Shown piece after piece: positions 1,649 through 13,871 of a DNA stretch of 64,000 nt. The translations under genes were made by a program, and so were the position numbers. Positions within the stretch are counted from its first letter, which is position 1. Each line of letters starts with the position of its first letter. The stretch spans positions 434,001-498,000 of the forward strand of contig NZ_BEWB01000007.1 of the NCBI RefSeq assembly GCF_003112555.1. Reading direction: 5' to 3'. The notes under the pieces are model-generated. The model did no database searches. It was not told the DNA's origin and worked only from the letters and a program-made list of their open reading frames with translations. Origin of the DNA: Streptomyces coelicoflavus (GTDB taxonomy: Bacteria; Actinomycetota; Actinomycetes; Streptomycetales; Streptomycetaceae).

Positions 1649-2103
1649 GCGCTTCTTTCGCGTGGGGCCGCCCGAGCGTGGGGGCTGGGGCGCTGAAAGG
1701 ATTCAATGAAGCTTGACCGGGACGTTAGGCAGAAAGCCCGTTGTGGTCAATGCGCGTGCGGGAAGCAGTTGTTGGGTCCGTCGTCCCTCGGGGCTGCCCC
1801 TGCGGGGGTTGCCCGGGCCGGTGCCCGTGTGCCCGCCCCTGCCGCCCGGCCGAGTGTGCGGTCGAAGAGGGTCGGCGCAAGCAGTGCGACTTCACCTGCG
1901 CCTGTCGCGAGGTCATTCGTTCAGGCTGCAATGACTTGCTCACGTCAAGCCGGGCGATCCATGATGCGACGACCGGCGTGCAGAACAACTCCCGTTGCTC
2001 ACGGGCGGGTTCGGTCCACGCAGCCGGCCGGCCGCGCCCCCCGGTGCCCGTGCGGCCGCCACCCCACACCCCCATGGGCACCGGAGAGAGCGGAGCACCC
2101 CAC
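1649..2103. other. 455-base intergenic region between divergent genes
   Basis: The region separates the sugar-binding lipoprotein (minus) from the amidase (plus). It contains the minus-strand promoter at 1722-1750. The reading frames that cross it lack ribosome sites and coding-type composition. I see no RNA gene and no clear plus-strand -35/-10 pair. A TTGCTCACG motif occurs twice (about 1937 and 1995), meaning unknown. Confidence 0.5.
1722..1750 (-). promoter_or_regulatory. Promoter of the sugar-binding lipoprotein gene
   Basis: On the minus strand a TTGACC -35 box (1745-1750) and a TAACGT -10 box (1722-1727) are separated by 17 bases. This gives a leader of about 65 bases before the ATG at 1648. 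A short dyad with TGAA/TTCA ends (about 1694-1705) lies in the leader and could be an operator. Confidence 0.5.
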
Positions 2104-3486
2104 ATGTCCTCCGGACTCCCCGCAAGACGTGCGCGCACCGCGCTGTGCGCCGCGGCCGTCGCGGCGGCTCTGGCCCTGACCGGCCAGCCGTCCCCGGCCG
2201 CCGCGGCACCCGCGCCGCCCGCCCCGGCCGACGCCCCCGTCAACGCGGCGTTCGCCCGCGCTGCCGTAGCCCACGACGTCCCCCGGGACCTCCTGGTCGC
2301 CGTCGGCTACGGCGAGACCCGCCTCGACGGCCACGCCGGACAGCCCAGCCAGGACAACGGCTACGGCATGATGCACCTGGTCAGCAACCCCGAACGGCAC
2401 ACCCTGGAACGGGCCGCGCGGCTCACCGGCGCGAGCCTCGCCGACCTCAGGACGGACCCCGGCGCCAACATCGACGGCGCCGCCGCCGTGCTGCGCGCCC
2501 TGGCCGACGAGGCCGGTCTCGACGCCGCCGACCGCGACCGGCTCGGCGCCTGGTACCCCGTCACCGCCCGCTACGGCGCCCCCGGCGGCGAGGCCGCGGC
2601 CCGCCTGTACGCCGACGCCGTCTACGAGATCCTCGGCGAGGGCGTACGGACCCGTGCCGACGGTGGCGAACAGGTCGCCGTCGCCCCGCGCACCGTGCGG
2701 CCCGAACGCGGACCGTACGCGCAGACCGATGCCGACGCGGCGCTCGCGGCCGCCGCCGAATACCCCTCGGCGCTCTGGAACCCGGCCTACTCCGGCAACT
2801 ACGCCGCGGGCCGCAGTTCGGCGATCACGACCGTCGTCGTGCACGTCACGCAGGGCTCGTACGCCGGGTCCATCAGCTGGTTCCAGAATCCGTCCGCCCA
2901 GGTCAGCGCCCACTACGTGGTGCGGTCCTCCGACGGGCAGATCACCCAGACCGTCCGCGAGGGCGACACCGCCTGGCACGCGCGCTCGGCGAACCCCTAC
3001 TCCGTCGGCGTGGAGCACGAGGGCTACGTCGACGACCCCGCCTGGTTCACCGACGCGATGTACCGCTCGTCCGCGGCACTGACCCGCTACCTCGCCGACA
3101 AGTACGGCATCCCCAAGGACCGCGCGCACATCGTCGGACACAGCGAGGTCCCCGGCAACGACCACACCGACCCCGGCCCGAACTGGGACTGGGCCTACTA
3201 CATGAGCCTGGTCCAGGGCGACGACGACGGCTCCACCGGCACCCCCTTCCCCACCTGGGGGACCGACGTGAGCATCCGTCAGCAGCCGACGACCGACTCC
3301 GCACGGGTGGCGAGTCTGCCCGGACCGACGTCCGTCCGCGTGGCCTGCCAGGTCCACGGCGGCCTCGTCGAGTACGACGGCTACAGCAACGACGCCTGGT
3401 CCTACCTGCCCGACCACGGCGGCTACGTCTCCAACATCTTCATCGACGTCGACGACGCCTGGCTCCCAGGAGTGCCCACATGCTGA
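2104..3486 (+). CDS. Secreted N-acetylmuramoyl-L-alanine amidase (Amidase_2) with SH3-like C-terminus
   Basis: 460 residues. A Sec signal peptide (about 1-34) is followed by an Ala-rich alpha-helical region (about 45-190) and an Amidase_2 domain (about 225-375). Zinc ligands are readable as His247 (VVVHVT), His346 (VGHSEV) and Asp356 (TDPGP); the last two are 10 apart, as in AmpD. The enzyme should cut the bond between muramic acid and L-Ala in peptidoglycan outside the cell. Residues 382-460 form a wall-binding-like domain that recurs in the next gene. The ATG at 2104 is chosen because GGAG stands before it and the signal peptide starts there, although the frame is open further upstream. The next gene starts 4 bases before this stop codon and overlaps it, so they are co-translated. 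Confidence 0.88.
   Translation: MSSGLPARRARTALCAAAVAAALALTGQPSPAAAAPAPPAPADAPVNAAFARAAVAHDVPRDLLVAVGYGETRLDGHAGQPSQDNGYGMMHLVSNPERHTLERAARLTGASLADLRTDPGANIDGAAAVLRALADEAGLDAADRDRLGAWYPVTARYGAPGGEAAARLYADAVYEILGEGVRTRADGGEQVAVAPRTVRPERGPYAQTDADAALAAAAEYPSALWNPAYSGNYAAGRSSAITTVVVHVTQGSYAGSISWFQNPSAQVSAHYVVRSSDGQITQTVREGDTAWHARSANPYSVGVEHEGYVDDPAWFTDAMYRSSAALTRYLADKYGIPKDRAHIVGHSEVPGNDHTDPGPNWDWAYYMSLVQGDDDGSTGTPFPTWGTDVSIRQQPTTDSARVASLPGPTSVRVACQVHGGLVEYDGYSNDAWSYLPDHGGYVSNIFIDVDDAWLPGVPTC
3247..3486 (+). repeat. Direct repeat copy 1 (79-codon C-terminal domain)
   Basis: This 240-base stretch codes for the last 79 residues of the amidase. It recurs at 4539-4778 at the end of the next gene, with the same length and no insertions or deletions. 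The encoded domains differ at only 10 positions and both start FPTWGTDV and end LPGVPTC. Confidence 0.9.
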
Positions 3487-4778
3487 CACCTCCCCTCCGG
3501 CGCCGCGGCTGCGCCCCGCGCCGCAGACCCCGCGCCCGACGGGCCCTGAGCGGCACGGTGTGCCTGCTCGCCCTCGCCGGTACGGCCCTCGCCGCCGCGC
3601 CCGCCCCGGCCGCCGACGCCGCCGTACCGCCCGCCCCGGTGTCCTGGCGCGCGGACCTGACCCGGCCCGGCACCGACGACGTCAACGTCCGGTACGGCTC
3701 CGGCGCCCTGCGGGTGCGCGACGGCTCCGTCAGCCCCGCGTCCCTCGGCCGGGACCGCGGCTACGCCTCCGCCGTACTGGACACGCACCACGTGGACCGG
3801 CCCGTGAACCGGGTCGCCGTGGACCTCGACGCGACGGTGCCGGGCGCGGCGGGCGTCGAGGTCGACGTGCGCGGCCGCGCGGCCGACGGCACCTGGACCG
3901 AGTGGCGGCGGGCGGCGGCCGGCGCCCCGGCCGAGCTGCCCCGGTACGTCGTCGACGTCCAGGCCCGGCTCACCCTGTGGAACGCCAAGGGCGAACCCAC
4001 CGCGGCCGTACGGGCGGTGACCCTGACGGCGGACGACGCGGGCACCGCCCCCGCCGAGCCCGCACCGGCGACCAGGGCCGCCGCGTTCTCCGCCCGGGTC
4101 TACGCCACCCGCGAGGGCCTCGTCGGGCACACCACCGCCAACGGGCACGTCATCCAGGCGAACGACCACTTCGTGGCGCTGCCCTCCCGCCGCGCCCTGT
4201 CTCCCAAGGGCAGCGGCCAGTACTCGGTGCAGGTGTGCGGGCCCGCCCGCTGCGAGACGGCGCCCGTGTGGGACGTCGGCCCGTGGAACACCCACGACGA
4301 CCACTGGAACCCCTCGTCGGTGCGTGAGCAGTGGAAGGACCTCCCGCAGGGCCTGCCCGAGGCGCAGGCCGCGTACGAGGACGGCTACAACGGCGGACGC
4401 GACGAGTTCGGCCGCCAGGTCGCCAACCCGGCCGGCATCGACCTCGCCGACGGCACCTTCTACAACGTCGGCCTGAACGACAACGGCTGGGTGACCGTCA
4501 CCTACCTGTGGACCGAGGGCGGCGGCGACACCACGTCCTTCCCGACCTGGGGCACCGACGTGAGCGTCCGGCAGCAGGCGACGACCGCGTCCACGCGCGT
4601 GGCGAGCCTGCCCGGGCCCACGACCGTGCGGGTGCGGTGCCAGGTCCACGGCCAGCTCGTGAACTACGACGGCTACAGCAACGACGCCTGGTCCTACCTG
4701 CCCGACTACGGCGGTTACGTCTCCAACATCTTCATCGACGTGGCCGACGCCTGGCTCCCGGGCGTGCCCACCTGCTGA
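3480..4778 (+). CDS. Secreted protein with barwin/RlpA-like middle region and duplicated C-terminal SH3-like domain
   Basis: 432 residues with an Arg-rich signal peptide (about 1-47). Residues about 50-190 form a beta-rich module (repeated VxVDVRGR and TEWRRA-type stretches). Residues about 200-350 contain the segment CGPARCETAPVWDVGPWNTH, which resembles double-psi-barrel secreted proteins. Residues 354-432 match the amidase C-terminus at 69 of 79 positions. The ATG overlaps the amidase stop, so the two proteins are made together and probably act at the same wall site. No catalytic activity can be assigned with confidence. The 3' end overlaps the convergent ArsR-type gene by 64 bp. Confidence 0.75.
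   Translation: MLTPPLRRRGCAPRRRPRARRALSGTVCLLALAGTALAAAPAPAADAAVPPAPVSWRADLTRPGTDDVNVRYGSGALRVRDGSVSPASLGRDRGYASAVLDTHHVDRPVNRVAVDLDATVPGAAGVEVDVRGRAADGTWTEWRRAAAGAPAELPRYVVDVQARLTLWNAKGEPTAAVRAVTLTADDAGTAPAEPAPATRAAAFSARVYATREGLVGHTTANGHVIQANDHFVALPSRRALSPKGSGQYSVQVCGPARCETAPVWDVGPWNTHDDHWNPSSVREQWKDLPQGLPEAQAAYEDGYNGGRDEFGRQVANPAGIDLADGTFYNVGLNDNGWVTVTYLWTEGGGDTTSFPTWGTDVSVRQQATTASTRVASLPGPTTVRVRCQVHGQLVNYDGYSNDAWSYLPDYGGYVSNIFIDVADAWLPGVPTC
4539..4778 (+). repeat. Direct repeat copy 2 (79-codon C-terminal domain)
   Basis: Second copy of the 240-base C-terminal module found at 3247-3486. Conservation is high even at the DNA level around YSNDAWSYLPD and GGYVSNIFIDV, as expected for a recent duplication or gene conversion. 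Confidence 0.9.
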
Positions 4779-5770
4779 GCCTCCAGGAGGGCGGACCCGA
4801 GCGCCGTGCGGCGGTGCAGCACCCGGTTGCCCTCGCGCCGGGTGCTCACCAGCCCCGCCTCGCGCAGCACGGCGGCGTGCCGGCTCGCCGTGGAGGGCGC
4901 CAGGCACAGCGCGGCGGCCAGGGCCGTCGTCGTCATCGGCGCCTCCAGGGACTCCAGCATCCACGCCCGGGAGGCGCCGATCAGTTGCGCGACGGACGGC
5001 CTGTCCACCCCGGCCCGCAGCCGCGGGAGCCAGCCGGGCTCCGGGTCCAGCGGGTGGACCAGTACGTGCGGCAGCGACTCGTCCACCAGGGCCAGCGGCG
5101 TGCGTACGCAGAAGAAGGCGGGCACCAGCGTCAGCGGGCGCCCGCCCAGCCGCAGCAGTCTGGGTTCGGGGTAGGGGGCGGCGAGCCGGGTGCCGTCGGG
5201 CCGCCGCCAGCCCGGCAGTTCCGCGTAGCCGGCCAGCAGCGCCTCCGCCCCGCCGGTGAGCGCCGCCTCGGCCCGGCGGGCACGGTCCTGGCCGGCCCGG
5301 GCGCGGATCACGGACAGGTACGGCGCCACCGCCACGGCGTGGTACCGCCGCAACGTGCCGCCGAGCCAGCGCAGTGCGGTCGACTCCCCGGTGGCGACCC
5401 ACCGCACGCTGCGCGGCACCGGACCGTGCGACCGGGCGCACAACCGGGCCAGTTCGGCGACGAGCCGGCGCCGGGGCGTCGACTGCACCCGGTCCACGGC
5501 CTCCTCCAGCGCGAGGTCCCCGAGACCGGGCGTCAGGAAGTCCGGGAAGTAACCCTCGGCCGGGCACAGCGACATCAAGGCCCTGACGTCGTCGGCCAGC
5601 CCGGCCCGGTGCAGTGCCCGGCGCACCTCGCGCCGCCAGGGATCGTAGGTCAGGGGCTCCCGGCCGTCTTGGAGCAACTGGAGGCTCAGCACCGTCTCCC
5701 ACAGGGCGTCGCTGCCGGGCGCCACCCGTAACCGGGCCAACGCGCCCCGGTCGAACTCGACTTCAAGCAC
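4715..5770 (-). CDS. ArsR-family (DUF5937-type) transcriptional regulator with a TTA codon
   Basis: 351 residues. The N-terminal 250 residues form a DUF5937-like sensor region (starting VLEVEFDRGALARLRV). A winged helix-turn-helix of the ArsR type follows at about 265-335 (TTALAAALCLAPSTASRHAA, then a wing ending LVSTRREGNRVLHRR). A longer frame extends to 5914, but the GTG at 5770 has GGAGTGGGG just upstream and starts at the family N-terminus. Leu14 is encoded by TTA (5729-5731), one of only two TTA codons seen in this window, so translation may need the bldA tRNA. Target genes are unknown. The 3' end overlaps the secreted-protein gene, so the C-terminal residues lie antisense to the repeat. 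Confidence 0.8.
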   Translation of the reverse strand: MLEVEFDRGALARLRVAPGSDALWETVLSLQLLQDGREPLTYDPWRREVRRALHRAGLADDVRALMSLCPAEGYFPDFLTPGLGDLALEEAVDRVQSTPRRRLVAELARLCARSHGPVPRSVRWVATGESTALRWLGGTLRRYHAVAVAPYLSVIRARAGQDRARRAEAALTGGAEALLAGYAELPGWRRPDGTRLAAPYPEPRLLRLGGRPLTLVPAFFCVRTPLALVDESLPHVLVHPLDPEPGWLPRLRAGVDRPSVAQLIGASRAWMLESLEAPMTTTALAAALCLAPSTASRHAAVLREAGLVSTRREGNRVLHRRTALGSALLEAQQVGTPGSQASATSMKMLET

Positions 5771-5923
5771 TGACCCCACTCCACTCGCGTCCCGGCGGAT
5801 TGCGGAAACTGACCAACGCAGTCGTGCGGTGCGAGACGATGGTGCCCGAGGTCTACGCGCGTCCGCCACAGCCCGCGGAGAATCGCGGCGAATCGGCGGC
5901 GGAACCGGCCGCACAATGGCCGT

Positions 5924-6349
5924 ATGACTTCCCCCTCCACCCGGTTCGCCGTGCGGGACGACGACGCGACGCGCAGGCGCACACCCGCACCCACCCGTAC
6001 GCGCCTCGCGGCCGCGGTGGCCGCGGTGGTGATCGTCGGCGCCGGACTGGCGCTCAGGGCCGTGGCGGTGGGCGAGGTGGCCAAGTACGGCGGAGACGCG
6101 CTGTACACCCTGCTGCTGTTCGCGCTCGTCCTGGTGGCGGCGCCGCGGACGGCGCCGGGGAGGGCCGCCGTGCTCGCCCTGGCGCTGAGTTGGGCGGTGG
6201 AGTTCCTCCAGCTCACCGACGGGCCGGCGTACCTCGCCGGGCAGAGCACGGTGGCCCGTCTGGTCCTCGGCTCCACCTTCAACGCACCGGACCTCTTCTG
6301 GTACGCGGTCGGGGCGGCGGCCGGTTGGCTGGCCGTCAGGCGGGCGTGA
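5924..6349 (+). CDS. DUF2809 family small membrane protein
   Basis: 141 residues. After an Arg/Thr-rich cytoplasmic tail there are four hydrophobic segments (about 27-50, 58-76, 82-100 and 118-138). The motifs KYGGDALYTLLLF and SWAVEFLQL match DUF2809 proteins, whose function is not established. It converges on pxpC with a 14-bp overlap of the 3' ends. It lies divergent to the ArsR-type gene, so joint control is possible but nothing in the sequence proves it. Confidence 0.75.
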   Translation: MTSPSTRFAVRDDDATRRRTPAPTRTRLAAAVAAVVIVGAGLALRAVAVGEVAKYGGDALYTLLLFALVLVAAPRTAPGRAAVLALALSWAVEFLQLTDGPAYLAGQSTVARLVLGSTFNAPDLFWYAVGAAAGWLAVRRA

Positions 6350-7193
6350 ACCGCAGCGGTGTTCCGGCCGCGGCCTGGGCCGCCGCCGCGAGAGCCGGCT
6401 CCGGGACGACCGCGACGACGGGGTAGCCCCCGGTCGTCGGGTGGTCGTGCAGGAAGATCACCGGGCGTCCGTCCGGCGGGACCTGTACGGCGCCCAGGAC
6501 CATGCCCTCACTGGGCAGTTCACCCGTCGACGCCCGCTCGAGCGGCGGCCCCTCGGTGCGCAGGCCGATGCGGTTGCTGTGCGGGGAGACGCGGTAGGCG
6601 GCCGAGGTGAGCGTGCGCAGCGCGGCCGGGGAGAACCAGTCGGTGCGCGGGCCCGGGCGCACCGGCAGGACCAGTTCGGCCGGCGGGCCGGGCCAGGGGG
6701 CGGCGACGGGCGGCGGCACCGGCCGCGGGGGAGGACCCACCGCCACGACGTCCCCGTCCCGCAGCGGGGCCGGGCCCAGCCCCGAGAGCAGATCCGTCGA
6801 GCGGCTGCCGAGGACGGGCTCGACGGCGACACCGCCCGCGACGGCCACGTACGAGCGGACCCCGGCGGTCACCGCCCCCACGTCCAGGACCGAGCCCGCC
6901 GGCACCCGCACCGGGGCGCCCCAGGCGACCGGCCCGGCGTCGACCGTCACCGGGCAGGGCGCCCCGCCGACCACGACGGTGACGTCCCGGTCCGGCCGCA
7001 GGGCGCAGCCCGTCAGGGTCGTCTCCAGGACGGCGGCGCCCGGGTCGTTGCCGAGGAGGCGGTTGGCGAGCCGCATCGCGGGCGCGTCCAGCGCACCGGA
7101 CCGGGGGACGCCCAGATGGGCGTGGCCGGGCCGGCCCGCGTCCTGCACCGTCGTGAGCGCACCGGAACGCACCGTGGTCAGCTTGGCCGTCAT
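6336..7193 (-). CDS. pxpC: 5-oxoprolinase subunit C (biotin-dependent carboxyltransferase family)
   Basis: 285 residues of the PxpC/KipA family, the normal length. The N-terminus TTVRSGALTTVQDAGRPG and the later PRSGALDAPAMRLAN and GMVLGAVQVPPDG segments are family hallmarks. With PxpB and PxpA it forms the ATP-dependent prokaryotic 5-oxoprolinase that opens pyroglutamate to glutamate in the cytoplasm. It is the last gene of the pxpA-pxpB-pxpC operon: its ATG overlaps the pxpB stop by 4 bases. The long upstream frame to 8195 is only a shadow of pxpB and pxpA. Confidence 0.93.
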   Translation of the reverse strand: MTAKLTTVRSGALTTVQDAGRPGHAHLGVPRSGALDAPAMRLANRLLGNDPGAAVLETTLTGCALRPDRDVTVVVGGAPCPVTVDAGPVAWGAPVRVPAGSVLDVGAVTAGVRSYVAVAGGVAVEPVLGSRSTDLLSGLGPAPLRDGDVVAVGPPPRPVPPPVAAPWPGPPAELVLPVRPGPRTDWFSPAALRTLTSAAYRVSPHSNRIGLRTEGPPLERASTGELPSEGMVLGAVQVPPDGRPVIFLHDHPTTGGYPVVAVVPEPALAAAAQAAAGTPLRFTPA

Positions 7194-8026
7194 GCCCCGG
7201 CCTCCGGGTGCACGCCGGCCGTGGTGGTGCGGCCGGTCCCGGCGTCTGTCGCCCTCGCGCCGCCCGCCGTGACACGACCGGGCCCGTTGGCCGCCGTCCC
7301 GGCGCCGGGCGCCGGGACACGACCGGCCGCCGTCCGCGCGGTGGCCGTCCCCGCGCCGGCCGCCGGGCTCGCGGTGGCCGTCCCCGCGCCGTCCGCTGTG
7401 ACGAACCGCACCCGTGTCCCCGGCGTGAGCAGCGCCGCCCGCTCCCGCTCCGGGTCCCACAGCGGGCGCGGGTCGGGCATGGTGCCGATCAGCTGCCAGC
7501 CGCCCGGGGTGGCACGGGGGTAGACCGCGCTGTAGGGACCGGCGAGGGCGACCGCGCCGGCCGGCACCCGGGTCCTGGGCGTGGACCGCCGGGGGACGTG
7601 CAGCCGGGGCGGCAGCCCGGTGAGATAGCCGAAGCCGGGCGCGAAGCCGCAGAATGCGACCCGGTAGGTGTGCGCGCCGTGGAGGGCGCCGACCTCGTCC
7701 GGTGCGACCCCCCACAGGGCCGCCACGTCGGCCAGGTCCGGCCCGTCGTAGCGCACCGGGATCTCCACCGCGTCGCCCGTGTCGTCCGCGACCGGCGGCA
7801 CCTCCCAGCCGACGACCCGGCGGGCCAGCGCCCCGGGGTCCGGCACCCCGTCCAGCAGGACGGTCCGCGCCCCCGGCACCACCTCGGTGACCGGCGGCAG
7901 CGTCCCGGCGGCGCGCCTGCGCAGCACCTCGGCGTGGAAGGCCGCGGTGCGCTCGGCGTCGGGCAACTCCACGAGGAGGGCGTGGCGACCGGCCGGACGC
8001 ACACTGAGGGAGGGACCGCCGGTCAT
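7190..8026 (-). CDS. pxpB: 5-oxoprolinase subunit B with an Ala/Gly/Thr-rich C-terminal tail
   Basis: 278 residues. The first ~209 match PxpB/KipI (HALLVELPDAERTAAFH, later CGFAPGFGYLTGLPP and GWQLIGTMPDPRPLWDP). The family normally ends shortly after the VRFV strand. This protein continues for about 69 residues of Ala/Gly/Thr/Pro-rich sequence (7193-7399) with repeated GAGTATA-like units, likely disordered. The DNA there contains a near-perfect 21-base direct repeat (7338-7358 and 7371-7391). It partners with PxpC, and the ATG overlaps the pxpA stop by 4 bases. Confidence 0.92.
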   Translation of the reverse strand: MTGGPSLSVRPAGRHALLVELPDAERTAAFHAEVLRRRAAGTLPPVTEVVPGARTVLLDGVPDPGALARRVVGWEVPPVADDTGDAVEIPVRYDGPDLADVAALWGVAPDEVGALHGAHTYRVAFCGFAPGFGYLTGLPPRLHVPRRSTPRTRVPAGAVALAGPYSAVYPRATPGGWQLIGTMPDPRPLWDPERERAALLTPGTRVRFVTADGAGTATASPAAGAGTATARTAAGRVPAPGAGTAANGPGRVTAGGARATDAGTGRTTTAGVHPEAGA

Positions 8027-8775
8027 GCGAACGCCCCGATCCCGACCCCGGCCGTCTCCAGCGCCGTACGCACCCGGGCGGCGATCCGGGCGGCGTTCGG
8101 GGTGTCGCCGTGCACGCACAGCGAGCGGGCGGCGACCGCGACGGCCGTACCGTCCACGGCCTCGACGGAGCCCTCCACGGCGAACGCCACCGCACGGCGT
8201 ACCACCGCGTCCCCGTCGGTCACCACCGCGTCCGGCTCGCGGCGGGGGACCAGGGTGCCCCGCGCGGTGTAGGCGCGGTCCGCGAAGGCCTCCGGGACGC
8301 CGGTGAGCCCCGCGTCGGCCGCGGCCGTGAGCAGTCGCGAGCCGGGCAGGCCGAGCACGGGCAGGGCGCCGCCCGCCAGACGTACCCCGGCCACGACGGC
8401 ACGGGCCTGCCCGTCGTCGTGGACGGTGCGGTTGTAGAGCGCGCCGTGCGGCTTGACGTAGGCGACCACGGCCCCGGCGGCCTCGGCGAAGACCCGGAGC
8501 GCGCCGATCTGGTACGCCACCTCGGCCGCCAGCTCGTCGGCGGGCACGTCCATGGCACGCCGCCCGAAGCCCGCCAGGTCGCGGTAGGACACCTGCGCCC
8601 CGATCCGCACCCCGCGCTCGGCGGCGAGGTCGCAGACGCGGCGCATCACCGAGGGGTCGCCGGCGTGGAAGCCGCAGGCGACGTTGGCGCTGGTGACGAC
8701 GGAGAGCAGGGCGTCGTCGTCGGTGAGGGTCCAGCGGCCGAAGCCTTCACCGAGATCTGCGTTGAGGTCGATCAC
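8023..8775 (-). CDS. pxpA: 5-oxoprolinase subunit A (LamB/YcsF family)
   Basis: 250 residues from GTG 8775. It starts with the family signature IDLNADLGEGFGRW and contains NVACGFHAGDP and YVKPHGALYN, the metal/substrate-binding segments of LamB/YcsF proteins. It forms the oxoprolinase with PxpB/PxpC. An ATG at 8811 is in frame, but starting there would put the operator and promoter inside the gene. The GTG has no ribosome site, and a -10-like TACGTT ends only six bases upstream, so the message is probably leaderless. First gene of its operon and divergent from the DUF969 operon. Confidence 0.92.
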   Translation of the reverse strand: MIDLNADLGEGFGRWTLTDDDALLSVVTSANVACGFHAGDPSVMRRVCDLAAERGVRIGAQVSYRDLAGFGRRAMDVPADELAAEVAYQIGALRVFAEAAGAVVAYVKPHGALYNRTVHDDGQARAVVAGVRLAGGALPVLGLPGSRLLTAAADAGLTGVPEAFADRAYTARGTLVPRREPDAVVTDGDAVVRRAVAFAVEGSVEAVDGTAVAVAARSLCVHGDTPNAARIAARVRTALETAGVGIGAFA

Positions 8776-8781
8776 ACCCTG

Positions 8782-8811
8782 AACGTAGACGATTGTTGAA
8801 CGATCCGACAA
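8782..8811 (-). promoter_or_regulatory. pxpA promoter with embedded GntR-type operator
   Basis: Minus strand: -35 TTGTCG (8806-8811), 18-base spacer, -10 TACGTT (8782-8787). The spacer contains the palindrome-like GATTGTTGAACGATC (plus strand 8791-8805), which differs by one base from the perfect copy at 8864-8878. Transcription would start at or next to GTG 8775. Confidence 0.6.
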
Positions 8812-8857
8812 GAGGGTCGAGGTGTGTGCCCTCTCTGCGGGGATGAGGATTCACCTC

Positions 8858-8886
8858 TTGTTAGATCGTTGAACGATCGCTAGTGT
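8858..8886 (+). promoter_or_regulatory. DUF969 operon promoter with perfect palindromic operator
   Basis: Plus strand: -35 TTGTTA (8858-8863), 17-base spacer, -10 TAGTGT (8881-8886). The spacer contains GATCGTTGAACGATC (8864-8878), a perfect 7-1-7 palindrome. A repressor bound here would block RNA polymerase directly. The architecture mirrors the pxpA promoter. No regulator gene of the GntR/FadR type lies in the window. Confidence 0.65.
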
Positions 8887-8993
8887 CCGTGCATCTGCCA
8901 CGCATCTGGAGCTATGGTCCCCGGGACCCATGAGTCACGTTCCGAAGCTCCGGATCCGTGCCCTGCCCCCTCATGCCTGAAGAAGGCCACCGA

Positions 8994-9713
8994 ATGATCG
9001 TTCTCCTCGGTGTGGTCGTGGTGATCCTCGGATTCGTCACGCGCCGCAACCCCGTCCTCGTGGTGGGCGTCGCCGGTATCGTCACCGGACTGCTCGGCAG
9101 GATGAACCCGCTGGAGGTCCTCGCGGCCTTCGGCCGGTCCTTCGCCGACAGCCGCTCGGTCACCGTCTACGCCATCGTGCTCCCCGTGATCGGGCTGCTC
9201 GAGCGCTACGGCCTGCGCGAGCAGGCCCGCAATCTCATCGGCCGCCTGGGCAAGCTCAGTGCCGGCCGGTTCCTCACCGTCTACCTGCTGGTCCGGCAGG
9301 TCACCGCGGCCTTCGGCCTCAACAGCATCGGCGGTCCGGCACAGACCGTGCGGCCGCTGGTGGCCCCCATGGCCGAGGCCGCGGCCGAACGCTCCACCGG
9401 GGCCAGACTGCCGGACAAGCTGCGCGAGAAGGTCCGTTCCTACTCGGCCTCGGCCGACACCGTGGGCGTCTTCTTCGGCGAGGACTGCTTCATCGCGATC
9501 GGCTCCATCCTGCTGATCACCGGCTTCGTGAACTCGACGTACCACCAGGACATCGAGCCGACCCAGCTCGCCCTGTGGGCCATCCCGCTCGCCGTCTGCG
9601 CCTTCCTCATCCACGGCGCCCGGCTGCTGCTCATGGACAAGCAGCTCGAACGCGAGATGGCGCAGGCCGCCGCCGAACACGAGCTGCCGCTTCCCGAGGG
9701 GGCCGACAAGTGA
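8994..9713 (+). CDS. DUF969 family membrane protein (putative permease half)
   Basis: 239 residues. It is hydrophobic, with a run of membrane segments ([31 protein letters not shown], later ITGFVNS and [14 protein letters not shown]). The conserved [21 protein letters not shown] and [14 protein letters not shown] segments are typical of DUF969. DUF969 and DUF979 are nearly always adjacent and next to pcp, so I infer that the two form one transporter for pyroglutamate or pyroglutamyl peptides; this is not proven. The ATG at 8994 has GAAGG 8 bases upstream. Its stop overlaps the DUF979 GTG by 4 bases. Confidence 0.85.
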
Positions 9714-10684
9714 TCAAGGTCGAATGGCTGTACTGGCTGATAGGCCTCGTCTTCGTCGTCATGGCCGTGCAGATGGCCATGGACCGCAGCAACCCCAAGC
9801 GATGGACGTCCGCCGCGTTCTGGGGCCTGCTCGGGCTCACCTTCCCCTACGGCACCGGCGTCGCCAACGCCACCGCGGGCAACGGCGGCTGGACCCTGCC
9901 CGCCGAACCGCTCGGCGTCGCCGTCCTCGCCCTGATCGTGCTCGCCGGCTTCAACTTCCTCGGCAAGGGCGTCCCGGTCACCACCACCGGCGAGCAGCGC
10001 GAGGCCGCCGCCGCCCGGCTCGGCAGCAAGATCTTCATCCCCGCGCTGACCATCCCGCTCGTGGCCATCGTCTGCGCCTCCGTCCTCGACGAGTCCGGAC
10101 TCTTCGAGTCGGGCAAGGCCACCCTGCTCGGGCTCGGCGTCGGCTGCATCGCCGCGCTCGTCGTCGGCATGCTCGTCACCGGCGAGAAGAAGGTCTCCGT
10201 CCCGATCCACTCCGGCCGCTCCATGCTGGAGGCGATGGGCGCCGCCCTGCTGCTGCCCCAGCTCCTGGCGGTGCTCGGCTCGATCTTCGCCGCCGCCGGG
10301 GTCGGCGACCAGGTCGGCGACATCATGAACAAGGTCCTGCCCGACGACTCGAAGTACTTCGCCGTCGTCGCCTACTGCGTGGGCATGTTCCTGTTCACCG
10401 TCATCATGGGCAACGCCTTCGCCGCCTTCCCGGTGATGACGGCGGCGATCGGCTGGCCGGTGCTCATCCAGCAGATGCACGGCAACGAGCCCGCCGTCCT
10501 CGCGATCGGCATGCTGGCCGGCTTCGCCGGCACCCTGTGCACCCCGATGGCCGCCAACTTCAACATCGTCCCGGCCACCCTGCTCGAACTGAAGGACCAG
10601 TACGGGCCCATCAAGGCCCAGCTCCCGACGGGCATCGCCCTGCTCGGCTGCTGCACCGTGATCATGGCGCTCTTCGCCTTCTGA
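9710..10684 (+). CDS. DUF979 family membrane protein (putative permease half)
   Basis: 324 residues from GTG 9710, chosen because of the GTGA overlap with the DUF969 stop. About nine hydrophobic helices are visible, with conserved segments [18 protein letters not shown]-like NFLGKGVP, and [18 protein letters not shown] near residues 235-255. The pairing with DUF969 and pcp suggests a two-subunit uptake system. The transport substrate is inferred from context only. Confidence 0.85.
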
Positions 10685-10719
10685 CCCCCACCACTCCACC
10701 CGCACGGCAAGGAGCGCCC

Positions 10720-11370
10720 ATGACCCGTGTCCTCATCACCGGCTTCGCCCCCTTCGGCGGGGAGCGCGTGAACCCGTCCTGGCAGGCGGCCTCCCTGGTG
10801 GCCGCCGAACCGCCCGCCGGACTCACGGTCACCGCTGCCGAACTGCCCTGCGTCTTCGGCGAGGCCCTCGACGCCCTGCGCGACGCCATCCGGGCCGAGG
10901 CCCCCGACCTGGTGCTCTGCCTGGGCCAGGCGGGCGGCCGCCCGGGCGTCACCGTCGAACGCGTCGGCATCAACGTCGACGACGCGCGCATCCCCGACAA
11001 CGCCGGTGGACAGCCCATCGACGAACCGGTGGTCCCGGACGGTCCCGCCGCCTACTTCTCCACCCTCCCCGTCAAGGCGTGCGTCGCCGCGATGCGTGAG
11101 GCAGGCGTCCCGGCCGCCGTCTCCAACACGGCCGGCACCTTCGTCTGCAACCACGTGGCGTACGGCCTCGGCCACCTCATCGCCACCGAGTTCCCGCACC
11201 TGCGCGGCGGGTTCGCGCACGTGCCCTGGGCGCCGGAGCAGGTGCCCGCCGGCACCGCGCCCGCCCTCCCGCCCGCCACCGTCGCCCACGGCCTGCGCGC
11301 CCTGCTGGCCGCCGCCGCCCGCACCCCCGCCGAGCAGGACCTGAAGGTCACCGAAGGAGCCACCCACTGA
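10720..11370 (+). CDS. pcp: Pyrrolidone-carboxylate (pyroglutamyl) peptidase
   Basis: 216 residues, the usual length of peptidase family C15. It starts [19 protein letters not shown], and the Glu ([12 protein letters not shown]), Cys ([15 protein letters not shown]) and His ([11 protein letters not shown]) parts of the Glu-Cys-His triad are all visible. It removes N-terminal pyroglutamate from peptides in the cytoplasm, supplying the substrate of PxpABC. AAGGAG precedes the ATG at 10720. It shares one base with the DUF2891 start codon. Confidence 0.95.
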
Positions 11371-12383
11371 TGCCGCTCAGCGCCCACGCGGCCACCTTCG
11401 CCCAGCTCGCCCTGGCGAACATCACCCGCGAGTACCCCAACTTCCCCGCCCACCTGATCACCTCCGCCGACGAGCGCCCCGAACCCCGCTCCCTGCACCC
11501 GGCCTTCTACGGCGCCTACGACTGGCACTCCTCGGTGCACATGCACTGGCTGCTCGTCCGGCTGCTCCGACGCCACGGCGGCACCCCCGCCTTGCCGGAC
11601 ACCGAGGCGGCCGTCGCCGTGCTCGACCGCCACCTCACCCCCGACCACCTCGCCACCGAGGCCGCCTACCTGCGCGACCGCCCGTCCTTCGAACGCCCCT
11701 ACGGCTGGGCGTGGCTGCTCGCGCTCGCCGCCGAGTGCCGGGCGCACGGGGGCGCGGAGGGGGAGCGCTGGGCGCGGGCGCTGGGCCCGGCCGTGGACGC
11801 CGTCGACGGACTGCTGGCCGAGTGGCTGCCCAAGGCCACCTATCCCGTACGCCACGGCAACCACCCCAACAGCGCCTTCGCGCTGAGCCTCGCACTCGAC
11901 TCGGGCGAGCTGTCGGCCGGCACCGAACGGGCCGTGCGGGAGCGCCTGCTGAGCTGGTTCGCCGACGACCACGACGCGCCCGCGCACTGGGAACCGTCGG
12001 GGCAGGATTTCCTGTCCCCGGCGCTCACCGAGGCCGACGCGATGCGCAGGGTCCTCGCGCCCGAGCGGCTCGCGGCGTGGCTCGACCGCTTCCTGCCCGG
12101 CCTCGCGACGGGTGCCCCCTGCGCGCTGCTGGAGGTGCCGGTGGTCTCCGACCACGCGGACCCGCAGATCGGCCACCTGCTCGGCCTGACCCTCAGCAGG
12201 GCGGCCGCGCTGCGTTCGCTCGCCGACGCCCTGCCCGAGGGTTCGGTCCGGGCCCGCCTGGACGAGGCGGCCGGGGCGCATCTCGCGGCGGGCCTGCCGG
12301 CGGTGGAGCGCGGCGACTTCACCACCGACCACTGGCTGGCGACCTTCGCCGCACTGGCGCTCGATCCGGTGGCTCCGCGCTGA
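11370..12383 (+). CDS. DUF2891 family protein
   Basis: 337 residues, soluble, with no signal peptide. Conserved DUF2891 segments are visible: HPAFYGAYDWHSSVHMHWLL (about 46-65), RPYGWAWLLALAAE (about 109-122), and NHPNSAFALSLALD (about 168-181). The fold is probably an alpha-alpha toroid like other glycan- or peptide-processing enzymes; the reaction is unknown. It is translationally coupled to pcp (TGATG overlap), which places it in pyroglutamate or peptide salvage. A hairpin follows at 12393-12418. Confidence 0.82.
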   Translation: MPLSAHAATFAQLALANITREYPNFPAHLITSADERPEPRSLHPAFYGAYDWHSSVHMHWLLVRLLRRHGGTPALPDTEAAVAVLDRHLTPDHLATEAAYLRDRPSFERPYGWAWLLALAAECRAHGGAEGERWARALGPAVDAVDGLLAEWLPKATYPVRHGNHPNSAFALSLALDSGELSAGTERAVRERLLSWFADDHDAPAHWEPSGQDFLSPALTEADAMRRVLAPERLAAWLDRFLPGLATGAPCALLEVPVVSDHADPQIGHLLGLTLSRAAALRSLADALPEGSVRARLDEAAGAHLAAGLPAVERGDFTTDHWLATFAALALDPVAPR

Positions 12384-12542: not shown

Positions 12543-13871
12543 ATGCACCGTCTCCTCGCCCGAACGCTCTCCTCCGCCCGGGCGCCCCTGGCCCGAGGCG
12601 TCGCGACCGCCCTCGCCCTCACCCTGGCGTCCTCCGTCCTCGCCGCGTCCACGAGCACCGCCGCGGCCCCCGACGGCACCGGGCCGGACCGTCGTCCCGG
12701 AGGGAACGCCTGGTTCACCTCCTGGGCCGCCTCGCAGCAGCGCCTCGCTCCCACCCCGCTGCGCGACCAGTCGATGCGCATGATCACCCACCTGAGCCAG
12801 GGCGGTGACGCGGTCCGGATACGCGTCCAGAACACCTTCGGCGAGACACCGCTCACCGTCGACGCGGCGACGGTGGCACACAGCGACGGCAAGGACGCCG
12901 CGACGGAGGGACGCCCGCGCCCCGTCACGTTCGACGGCCGGCGCCGGGTGGTCGTCCCACCCGGGGGCGAGGTGTGGAGCGACACCACCAGACTCCGCAC
13001 CGCCGCCCAGGACGACGTCGCGGTGTCGCTCTCCGTCACCGGCACGGTGGCTCCGGGGCAGCACGACAGCGCCTTCCGCACCAACTACCTGACCCCGCCC
13101 GGCTCGGGCGACCACACCGCCGACCCGGCCGGCACCGCGTTCACCGAGACGACCGGCTCCACCCTCCTGGTCAGCGCGGTCGACGTGCGCAACCCCCGCC
13201 TGCGGGGAAGCCTCGTCGCCTACGGCAGCTCGGTCGTCGACGGAACCGGGTCGACGAACTGCGGGCCGGGCTGCAGCCGCCCGGGAGCCGACCTGCGGTG
13301 GACCGACGACCTCGCCCGGCGGATCACCTCCGAACTGCCTCCCGCCCGGCAGTTCGCCGTCGCCAACGCGGGCATCGGCGGCACCACCAGCGCCGCGACC
13401 TGCCCGGGCATCGGTGCGGGCGTCCGCGGCCTCGACGCCGCCGCCCGTCTGGAACGCGACGTCCTGGCCCTGCACGGGGTCACAGGGGTCCTCTACTACT
13501 ACGGCACCAACGACCTCCCGGCCGGCTGCGACGCCGCGCAGATCGAGGCGAGCTACCGCGAGGTGTTCCAGCGACTGCGGGCCGCGGGCATCAAGGTGTA
13601 CGTCACGCCCATCACCCCTCGCCCGGGCTACACCGACCAGCACAACCGCGACCGGCACGCCGTCGGCACCTTCGTCTCGAAGTGGAACAGCTGCGGCGGC
13701 ACCTGTGACGGCATCCTCCCCTTCGACCAGGTGCTAGAGGACCCGGTGCGGCCGAACAGCATCTACCCGCCGTACGACACCGGCGACGGAGTCCACGCGA
13801 ACATCGCCGGCCAGCAGGCCCTCGCCGACATCGTCTCGCTCCCGATGCTGGCGTCGTCGGCCCGCAGGTGA
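12543..13871 (+). CDS. Secreted SGNH/GDSL-family hydrolase
   Basis: 442 residues. A long signal peptide (about 1-42, ending STSTAAA) is followed by a beta-rich N-terminal module (about 55-215, with ITHLSQGGDAVRIRVQN) and an SGNH esterase domain (about 220-440). Block I is VAYGSSVVDG, with Ser in GSS instead of the usual GDS; block II is NAGIGG; block III is YYGTND; block V is DGVHAN near the C-terminus. It is likely an extracellular esterase or lipase on lipid or polysaccharide; the substrate cannot be told. The ATG at 12543 has GGAAAGG nearby. It converges on the TetR gene. Confidence 0.85.
   Translation: MHRLLARTLSSARAPLARGVATALALTLASSVLAASTSTAAAPDGTGPDRRPGGNAWFTSWAASQQRLAPTPLRDQSMRMITHLSQGGDAVRIRVQNTFGETPLTVDAATVAHSDGKDAATEGRPRPVTFDGRRRVVVPPGGEVWSDTTRLRTAAQDDVAVSLSVTGTVAPGQHDSAFRTNYLTPPGSGDHTADPAGTAFTETTGSTLLVSAVDVRNPRLRGSLVAYGSSVVDGTGSTNCGPGCSRPGADLRWTDDLARRITSELPPARQFAVANAGIGGTTSAATCPGIGAGVRGLDAAARLERDVLALHGVTGVLYYYGTNDLPAGCDAAQIEASYREVFQRLRAAGIKVYVTPITPRPGYTDQHNRDRHAVGTFVSKWNSCGGTCDGILPFDQVLEDPVRPNSIYPPYDTGDGVHANIAGQQALADIVSLPMLASSARR

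Follow-up and report, generated by a model that had tools for sequence, protein, structure and literature searches.

5-Oxoproline (pyroglutamate) arises spontaneously from glutamine and glutamate, and to our knowledge its recovery by bacteria has rarely been examined. In Corynebacterium glutamicum, the GntR-type repressor PxpR is reported to bind 5-oxoproline with a dissociation constant (KD) of 726 nM and to recognize the site agattgttcaacaatct; mutation or removal of this site increased reporter output 6.5-fold and derepressed pxpT (PMC13274462). A function as 5-oxoproline transporter was proposed for the DUF969 and DUF979 proteins from their co-occurrence with oxoprolinase (Niehaus 2017, cited in PMC12795558), and a Campylobacter jejuni mutant without cj0552-4 (DUF969-DUF979-DUF2891) lost growth on 5-oxoproline in an experiment described as preliminary (PMC12795558). 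DUF979 has been assigned to an ion-transporter clan with a confident predicted complex with DUF969, and structural kinship of the two has been claimed (PMC11467057); a metabolic model includes the pair as pyroglutamate transporter (PMC6904757). YcsG, the Nramp protein of the Bacillus subtilis pxp operon, has been argued to be a Mn2+ importer (PMC10448178), which does not sit easily with the 5-oxoproline role proposed for it. Here, we analyzed a stretch of 64,000 nucleotides from Streptomyces coelicoflavus (referred to as the window), located on contig C7 of the 8.7 Mb genome G000. It carries a divergon of seven genes, in which pxpC-pxpB-pxpA on the minus strand are opposed to DUF969-DUF979-pcp-DUF2891 on the plus strand (Table 1). 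This divergon very likely serves the uptake of 5-oxoproline and its conversion, controlled by a PxpR-type repressor that acts in trans.

The intergenic gap between pxpA and DUF969 spans 218 nt. A search of the window with the palindromic, PxpR-like operator pattern gave two matches, both exact, where a mean of 0.07 is expected when up to 2 mismatches are allowed; each of the two sits between the −35 and −10 boxes of a putative promoter. The whole 8.7 Mb genome contains three exact sites, namely the two in the divergon and one at C10:407870, whereas the pattern read backwards had no exact match in it. Seven genome matches showed 1-2 mismatches; three of these were inspected as further targets and not adopted. 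We regard common control of both operons as supported. The two operators start 73 bp apart in the window; in relatives that have no internal pxpR this distance ranges from 51 to 153 bp, and helical phasing of the sites gave no clear rule.

No GntR regulator gene was found in the divergon, and a genome search located a close pxpR homologue at the C10 locus only. With the GntR protein that another Streptomyces (L038) encodes between its pxpA and DUF969 genes as query, the C10 protein was the best match (E 2.5e-87, 62% identity, residues 8-232), the next one being far more distant (E 1.3e-12, 28%); the few matches of higher identity (up to 41%) span short stretches only. This second 5-oxoproline locus (positions 1347-6631 of C10:402000-414000, L012) comprises pxpABC, a D-Glu_cyclase-family gene (PF07286), an MFS transporter gene and the GntR-FCD gene, and the third exact operator site lies between the latter two. 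As the only close pxpR homologue is found beside a second pxpABC set and an MFS transporter, the description of the divergon as self-contained in an earlier sequence-only reading is doubtful, and control is probably exerted in trans. Since no GntR gene adjoins it, the divergon represents a predicted distant PxpR target rather than a pxpR-linked operon. The PxpR-type repressor encoded at C10 probably acts on it by binding to the predicted operators.

The comparison with other Streptomyces genomes is consistent with this assignment. DUF969 was present in 44 of 199 sampled species and the exact operator site in 126 of 199, with the backwards control giving 0 in every genome listed; the site occurred in 37/44 species with DUF969 versus 89/155 without (Fisher p 0.001). 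Thirty DUF969 loci were compared closely, the window locus and 29 others. A site with at most 1 mismatch was found within 450 bp upstream in 29/30 of them, and in 0/30 when the sequence was reversed. In 29/29 DUF969 promoters with a site (30 examined) and in 26/26 pxpA promoters with a site (27 examined), TTGNNN immediately precedes the site in the −35 position and TANNNT begins 1-3 nt downstream of it, a layout that random placement reproduced in 5 of 20,000 cases. A pxpR homologue adjoins DUF969 in 18/30 loci (in L160 in the other orientation, with no site found), two sites without a pxpR between pxpA and DUF969 occur in 11/30 including the window, and one locus (L161) has a site and no pxpR in its stretch. 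The window genome and four relatives of the same type (L024-L027) carry a pxpR homologue 74-100% identical to the C10 protein away from the divergon, preceded by an operator site in 5/5 genomes; within the 11-12 kb inspected, an MFS gene neighbors it in 3/5 and pxpABC in the window genome only. One genome of this type (G198) has a second pxpR homologue (54%), also with a site. Among six sampled Streptomyces species without DUF969, five had a locus with pxpR, MFS gene, PF07286 homologue and pxpABC, and the sixth (G107) only pxpABC within 8 kb inspected. The simplest account of this distribution would be that a pxpR once present in the DUF969 divergon has been lost in the window type, both loci now being served by the copy at the standard locus.

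All seven genes are open reading frames that scored above their Pfam cut-offs in the profile search, and their coordinates agree with the two divergent operons named by the sequence-only reading. The pairs pxpC/pxpB, pxpB/pxpA and DUF969/DUF979 overlap by 4 nt each (start and stop codons checked), DUF979 and pcp are separated by 35 nt, and the DUF2891 start uses the last base of pcp (1 common base). As this gene order was found again in other Streptomyces and on an independently annotated Streptomyces plasmid, it is not due to chance. The adjacent pxpA, pxpB and pxpC genes would, by family, encode the prokaryotic 5-oxoprolinase. In NCBIfam, PxpA reached 344.5 bits with NF003814 (cut-off 226), PxpC 259.6 bits with TIGR00724 (cut-off 230.2) and Pcp 247.7 bits with TIGR00504 (cut-off 201.75); DUF969, DUF979 and DUF2891 had no match in release 20.0. 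The pcp gene gave the sole Peptidase_C15 match in the whole genome, and its role as an internal source of 5-oxoproline is supported. The 3' part of pxpB (7190-7400) encodes, after about residue 210, a low-complexity tail rich in Ala, Thr and Gly (about 60-70 residues); the annotated PxpB counterpart on a Streptomyces plasmid (L178) has only about 220 amino acids.

Table 1. Genes, operators and putative promoters of the 5-oxoproline divergon (window coordinates). The pxpA profile scan used a protein one codon longer than the gene given here.
Feature	Position	Strand	Evidence
pxpC, 5-oxoprolinase subunit C, biotin-dependent carboxyltransferase-like, 285 amino acids	6336-7193	−	PF02626, 296 bits, E 2.7e-88
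pxpB, 5-oxoprolinase subunit B, 278 amino acids	7190-8026	−	PF02682, 189 bits, E 1.1e-55
pxpA (LamB/YcsF), 5-oxoprolinase subunit A, GTG start, 250 amino acids	8023-8775	−	PF03746, 323 bits, E 1.3e-96
Putative pxpA promoter: TTGTCG 8811-8806, operator 1, TACGTT 8787-8782	8782-8811	−	Aligned flanks
Operator 1, GATTGTTGAACGATC, PxpR-like site of the pxpA promoter	8791-8805	no strand	Pattern search, aligned flanks
Putative DUF969 promoter: TTGTTA 8858-8863, operator 2, TAGTGT 8881-8886	8858-8886	+	Aligned flanks
Operator 2, GATCGTTGAACGATC, palindrome except for the centre base, PxpR-like site of the DUF969 promoter	8864-8878	no strand	Pattern search, aligned flanks
DUF969 membrane protein, putative 5-oxoproline transporter subunit, 239 amino acids	8994-9713	+	PF06149, 287 bits, E 1.6e-85; hydropathy segments
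DUF979 membrane protein, putative 5-oxoproline transporter subunit, GTG start, 324 amino acids	9710-10684	+	PF06166, 378 bits, E 5.8e-113
pcp, pyroglutamyl-peptidase I (Peptidase_C15), 216 amino acids	10720-11370	+	PF01470, 242.5 bits, E 5.6e-72
DUF2891, (α/α)6-barrel protein, probable enzyme, 337 amino acids	11370-12383	+	PF11199, 408.7 bits, E 2.1e-122

In the proposed scheme, DUF969 and DUF979 would form one secondary transporter that imports free 5-oxoproline, as suggested by homology and the C. jejuni mutant. Judged by family function, Pcp would cleave pyroglutamyl peptides within the cell to yield 5-oxoproline, and PxpABC would open 5-oxoproline to glutamate at the expense of ATP. A GntR-type repressor, an orthologue or near relative of PxpR, is predicted to sit on the operator in both core promoters and to leave upon binding of 5-oxoproline; provided from the second 5-oxoproline locus, it probably acts in trans on both loci. 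DUF2891 may be an accessory (α/α)6-barrel enzyme acting on 5-oxoproline or on a compound yielding it, which is the weakest step. Taken as a whole, we consider it probable that the locus is a divergon for 5-oxoproline use organized in this way. The uptake of 5-oxoproline and its conversion to glutamate by DUF969/979 and PxpABC, as put forward in the sequence-only reading, are supported by the protein families, the operators and the C. jejuni mutant.

The predicted structure of DUF979 had a mean predicted local distance difference test (pLDDT) score of 70.6. Residues 214-324, corresponding to the C-terminal third to half, aligned with IT-superfamily transporters with a best Z of 9.3; the top four chains were all IT-type (Z 8.4-9.3 over 105-138 residues), scores within the tool's warning range for helical proteins. 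In this half, the model resembles the membrane domains of INDY, NaS1 and TRAP-type transporters, which move small anions; such a likeness has also been published (PMC11467057). A Foldseek search with the DUF979 model gave no match at E below 0.001. The likeness of the modeled DUF979 to IT-superfamily folds is supportive, not proof. The transporter prediction itself is not new because it is already in print (PMC12795558, PMC11467057, PMC6904757); the statement that the roles of all three DUF proteins are not established thus holds in full for DUF2891 only, since for DUF969/979 the preliminary mutant phenotype is available as well.

For DUF2891, the family structure has been solved with Cj0554 (8IEU, 8IEV). 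The predicted structure of the window's DUF2891 (pLDDT 85.4) aligned with Cj0554 with a Z of 40.2 and 2.4 Å over 328 residues. The next folds, at 5-12% identity, were GH88 unsaturated glucuronyl hydrolases (highest Z 16.5, 2zzr) and 2-epimerases (Z 13.7-15.3, among them 5zig with 15.3 and 3wkf with 14.7), the three named structures having 6-11% identity, and complement C3 chains reached a Z of 14.8. DUF2891 thus has the (α/α)6 barrel in common with GH88/GH105 hydrolases and AGE-type 2-epimerases, and we do not class it with either. The function of DUF2891 is not derivable from the fold alone because the (α/α)6 arrangement is common and even complement C3 matches. Among 79 sequences (78 loci plus the window; two of 80 sequences, L054 and L088, were dropped for a stop) with a median pairwise identity of 48.5%, 44 positions were ≥97% conserved, including D51, H53, E97, R109, Y111, R161, H165, D200, E208, D261, D264, H269, R277 and H321. 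Many of the conserved residues lie in loops before helices or at helix starts, and the conserved polar ones look like an active site. An export-type leader was flagged in 21/80 DUF2891 loci by a signal-leader heuristic, for which L077 and perhaps L085 look like false positives and in which some leaders, such as those of L057 and L097, were missed. Since relatives carry such leaders, DUF2891 probably needs no cytoplasmic cofactor. A defence library gave no match to DUF2891, and a literature search retrieved neither a functional study of DUF2891 alone nor a paper for 8IEU/8IEV.

The genomic context of DUF2891 was studied in the best 80 of at least 592 loci, a set in which close relatives are over-represented and some contigs are short (63/80 have 3 kb on both sides). 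DUF969 was found in 20 of these loci, DUF979 in 21, PxpA in 14 and Pcp in 11. Neighbor clustering, from which hits of >85% identity, within-locus hits, shadowed open reading frames and families in <3 loci were dropped, gave DUF969/979 (20 loci) and pxpABC (12 and 11) as by far the largest families, in steady places. Other families occurred in at most 9 loci, were limited to one lineage or showed no fixed place and strand, several of them without family assignment; LysR regulators and DEAD-box helicases were recurrent but scattered in place and strand, and were not retained as partners. Beyond Streptomyces, DUF969-DUF979-DUF2891 sets were present in Burkholderia (L050, L051, L079), Glaciimonas (L094), Kribbella (L074) and one further bacterium (L059), and together with pxpBCA in a gemmatimonad metagenome-assembled genome (MAG, L091). 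In two Bacteroidetes MAGs (L060, L069), pxpA-pxpB-pxpC are followed by a DUF2891 gene encoding an export-type leader, and in L060 an Nramp gene lies ahead of this cluster. In Sphingomonas, overlaps link the genes for DUF969, DUF979 and DUF2891 to each other and to the gene of an OPLAH-type oxoprolinase; a table in PMC10040529 shows the same four products (oxoprolinase, DUF969, DUF979, DUF2891) with near-consecutive cluster numbers. In all, the DUF969-979-2891 set thus partners two unrelated 5-oxoprolinases, and DUF2891 occurs with two transporter types. On plasmids, DUF969 was found within 3 kb in at least 28 of the 40 DUF2891 records listed (40 of 55 in all), 20 of these 28 being from Klebsiella; the plasmid DUF969 list used for comparison comprised 40 of 82 records. 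In Burkholderia sp. OK233 (L053), a match to the DUF979 end (65% identity, E 2e-07) lies at 9779-9895 just before DUF2891, and this stretch looks like a remnant of a DUF969-979-2891 set.

A homologue of the PF07286 protein was absent from the 80 DUF2891 loci (tblastn, one Streptomyces query). A strict alternation of DUF2891 and PF07286 was nevertheless dropped because one Klebsiella plasmid carries DUF2891 and a PF07286-type gene within about 8 kb. The Klebsiella pneumoniae plasmid NZ_CP057068.1 (L174) has DUF969-DUF979-DUF2891 with a winged-helix regulator and, a few kb off, a separate gene set with a PxpB-PxpC fusion, a biotin carboxylase and a product annotated as "putative hydro-lyase," which is how other records call matches of the PF07286 protein.

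Several results weigh against the proposed scheme. In NCBIfam, PxpB scored slightly under its cut-off (TIGR00370, 136.7 versus 145.55 bits) and PxpC under that of the PxpC equivalog (NF045499, 207.9 versus 500 bits). Seven of the 44 Streptomyces species with DUF969 had no exact site, and a strict sigma-70 consensus scan of 8700-9050 called no promoter. DUF969 and DUF979 were rejected as detectable sequence homologues (profile comparison probability 0.1, E 0.49). The deletion of DUF969/979, the test named in the sequence-only reading, has been done in part elsewhere: the C. jejuni mutant lost 5-oxoproline use, but it also lacks DUF2891 and not only the transporter pair. Two genomes (G012, G077; loci L112, L111) have DUF969/979 and pcp, yet no PxpA match. 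With respect to DUF2891, 57/80 loci had no other pathway gene in up to 10 kb on each side. On plasmids of Burkholderia plantarii, Roseomonas and Novosphingobium, the inspected stretch around DUF2891 shows no further gene annotated for 5-oxoproline, and on a Niveispirillum plasmid no oxoprolinase is annotated less than 7 kb from the DUF969-979-2891 set. Among 198 Actinomycetota genomes, PxpA was present in 5/8 with DUF2891 versus 42/190 without, a weak association (p 0.02, kinship ignored).

The 57 loci speak against DUF2891 being tied solely to 5-oxoproline; the neighbor clustering gave no partner as frequent as DUF969/979 and pxpABC. These loci agree with a DUF2891 that is a passenger in such clusters and serves housekeeping or a sugar-related process with no connection to 5-oxoproline, as do the sugar enzymes that are its closest folds after Cj0554. 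The predominance and steady places of DUF969/979 and pxpABC around DUF2891, together with its occurrence beside two kinds of transporter and two unrelated kinds of oxoprolinase, argue against a passenger; PxpA was moreover present somewhere in 43/49 DUF2891 genomes (genomes of 50 of the 80 loci were chosen and 49 searched, L101 being left out), a raw count to be read without a matched base rate for their groups outside Actinomycetota. We regard a passenger as a real though minor possibility. No particular reaction follows from the locus alone, so that the specific prediction for DUF2891 announced in the sequence-only reading is not supported. As a tentative and rather doubtful proposal, DUF2891 might be an enzyme of 5-oxoproline metabolism that needs no cytoplasmic cofactors and can act either within the cell or outside it. 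It could be, for example, a 5-oxoproline racemase/epimerase or an enzyme that sets 5-oxoproline free from a sugar or amide conjugate. If so, it would fill the accessory slot held by the PF07286 protein in the standard Streptomyces locus, making both mirror forms or conjugates of 5-oxoproline usable.

The genomes G012 and G077 bear on the direction of transport: as they have no PxpA match, DUF969/979 cannot feed PxpABC there and may even export. The pair could then act as an overflow valve that releases or balances 5-oxoproline produced inside the cell by Pcp and spontaneous cyclisation, and the position of pcp closely behind DUF979 would fit. C. jejuni, however, requires cj0552-4 for the use of external 5-oxoproline (PMC12795558), and the predicted operator common to the pair and pxpABC would make export futile; we consider an exporter improbable. 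The operators, in turn, might serve another GntR regulator, with the C10 protein inactive at the divergon. The C10 protein scored under every NCBIfam cut-off listed, and more distant GntR proteins are also encoded in the genome. Against this stand the same site preceding the C10 gene, the lack of any other close homologue and the retention of the same sites in loci with an internal pxpR, which makes a different regulator distinctly improbable. Import of short pyroglutamyl peptides for cleavage by Pcp, included in the sequence-only reading, found no support and is highly improbable: although DUF979 is followed by pcp in the window, in G012 and G077 and in many Streptomyces loci, the C-terminal half of DUF979 resembles anion-transporter membrane domains, loci without pcp keep DUF969-979 by pxpABC, DUF2891 or another oxoprolinase, and the C. 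jejuni phenotype concerns free 5-oxoproline (PMC12795558), which is the simpler substrate.

With import of free 5-oxoproline under a PxpR-type repressor as the preferred reading, the divergon links a published transporter prediction with a published 5-oxoproline sensor site in a genetically tractable genus, and it predicts a regulator that acts from elsewhere in the genome. The kind of system is already known. What is added to the sequence-only reading are the operators within the promoters, the location of pxpR elsewhere and, for DUF2891, the contexts in other phyla, the leaders found in some relatives, the solved fold and the conserved polar residues. DUF2891 is the part deserving work, as a widespread protein with a solved structure and no reaction found in the literature search, and it represents a specific, testable target.

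The divergon is flanked by a minus-strand gene (4715-5797) for a protein with an ArsR-type helix-turn-helix near its C-terminus and by a plus-strand gene (12543-13871) for a GDSL-type lipase/esterase. Further upstream in the window, the open reading frame 1741-3486 and another ending at 4778 have near-identical final 70-80 residues (about 3200-3486 and 4500-4778); since these two neighboring frames finish near-identically, a C-terminal domain seems to be duplicated.

Among known systems, the B. subtilis pxp operon, with the gene order pxpA-ycsG-ycsI-pxpB-pxpC, resembles the window in combining 5-oxoprolinase genes with their own transporter gene and an accessory protein. We know of no DUF969, DUF979 or DUF2891 in B. 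subtilis. The C. glutamicum pxpTABC-pxpR genes share with the window pxpABC, a dedicated transporter, a GntR-type repressor and a very similar palindrome in the promoter region; the transporter described there is the Nramp-like PxpT, whereas the window has DUF969/979 plus pcp and DUF2891, with the repressor gene elsewhere (PMC13274462). C. jejuni cj0552-cj0554 constitute the same DUF969-DUF979-DUF2891 set, and the passages on these genes name no pcp or pxpABC alongside, whereas the window has all of them in one divergon (PMC12795558). The plasmid cluster of Sphingomonas parapaucimobilis has the three DUF genes in the same order with an overlapping 5-oxoprolinase-family gene, but this oxoprolinase is of the unrelated hydantoinase A/B (OPLAH) type and there is no pcp in the stretch. 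The standard Streptomyces locus, in which pxpR is divergent from MFS-PF07286-pxpABC, shares the operator and the pxpABC families with the window; in it, an MFS transporter and a D-Glu_cyclase-family protein take the place of DUF969/979, pcp and DUF2891.

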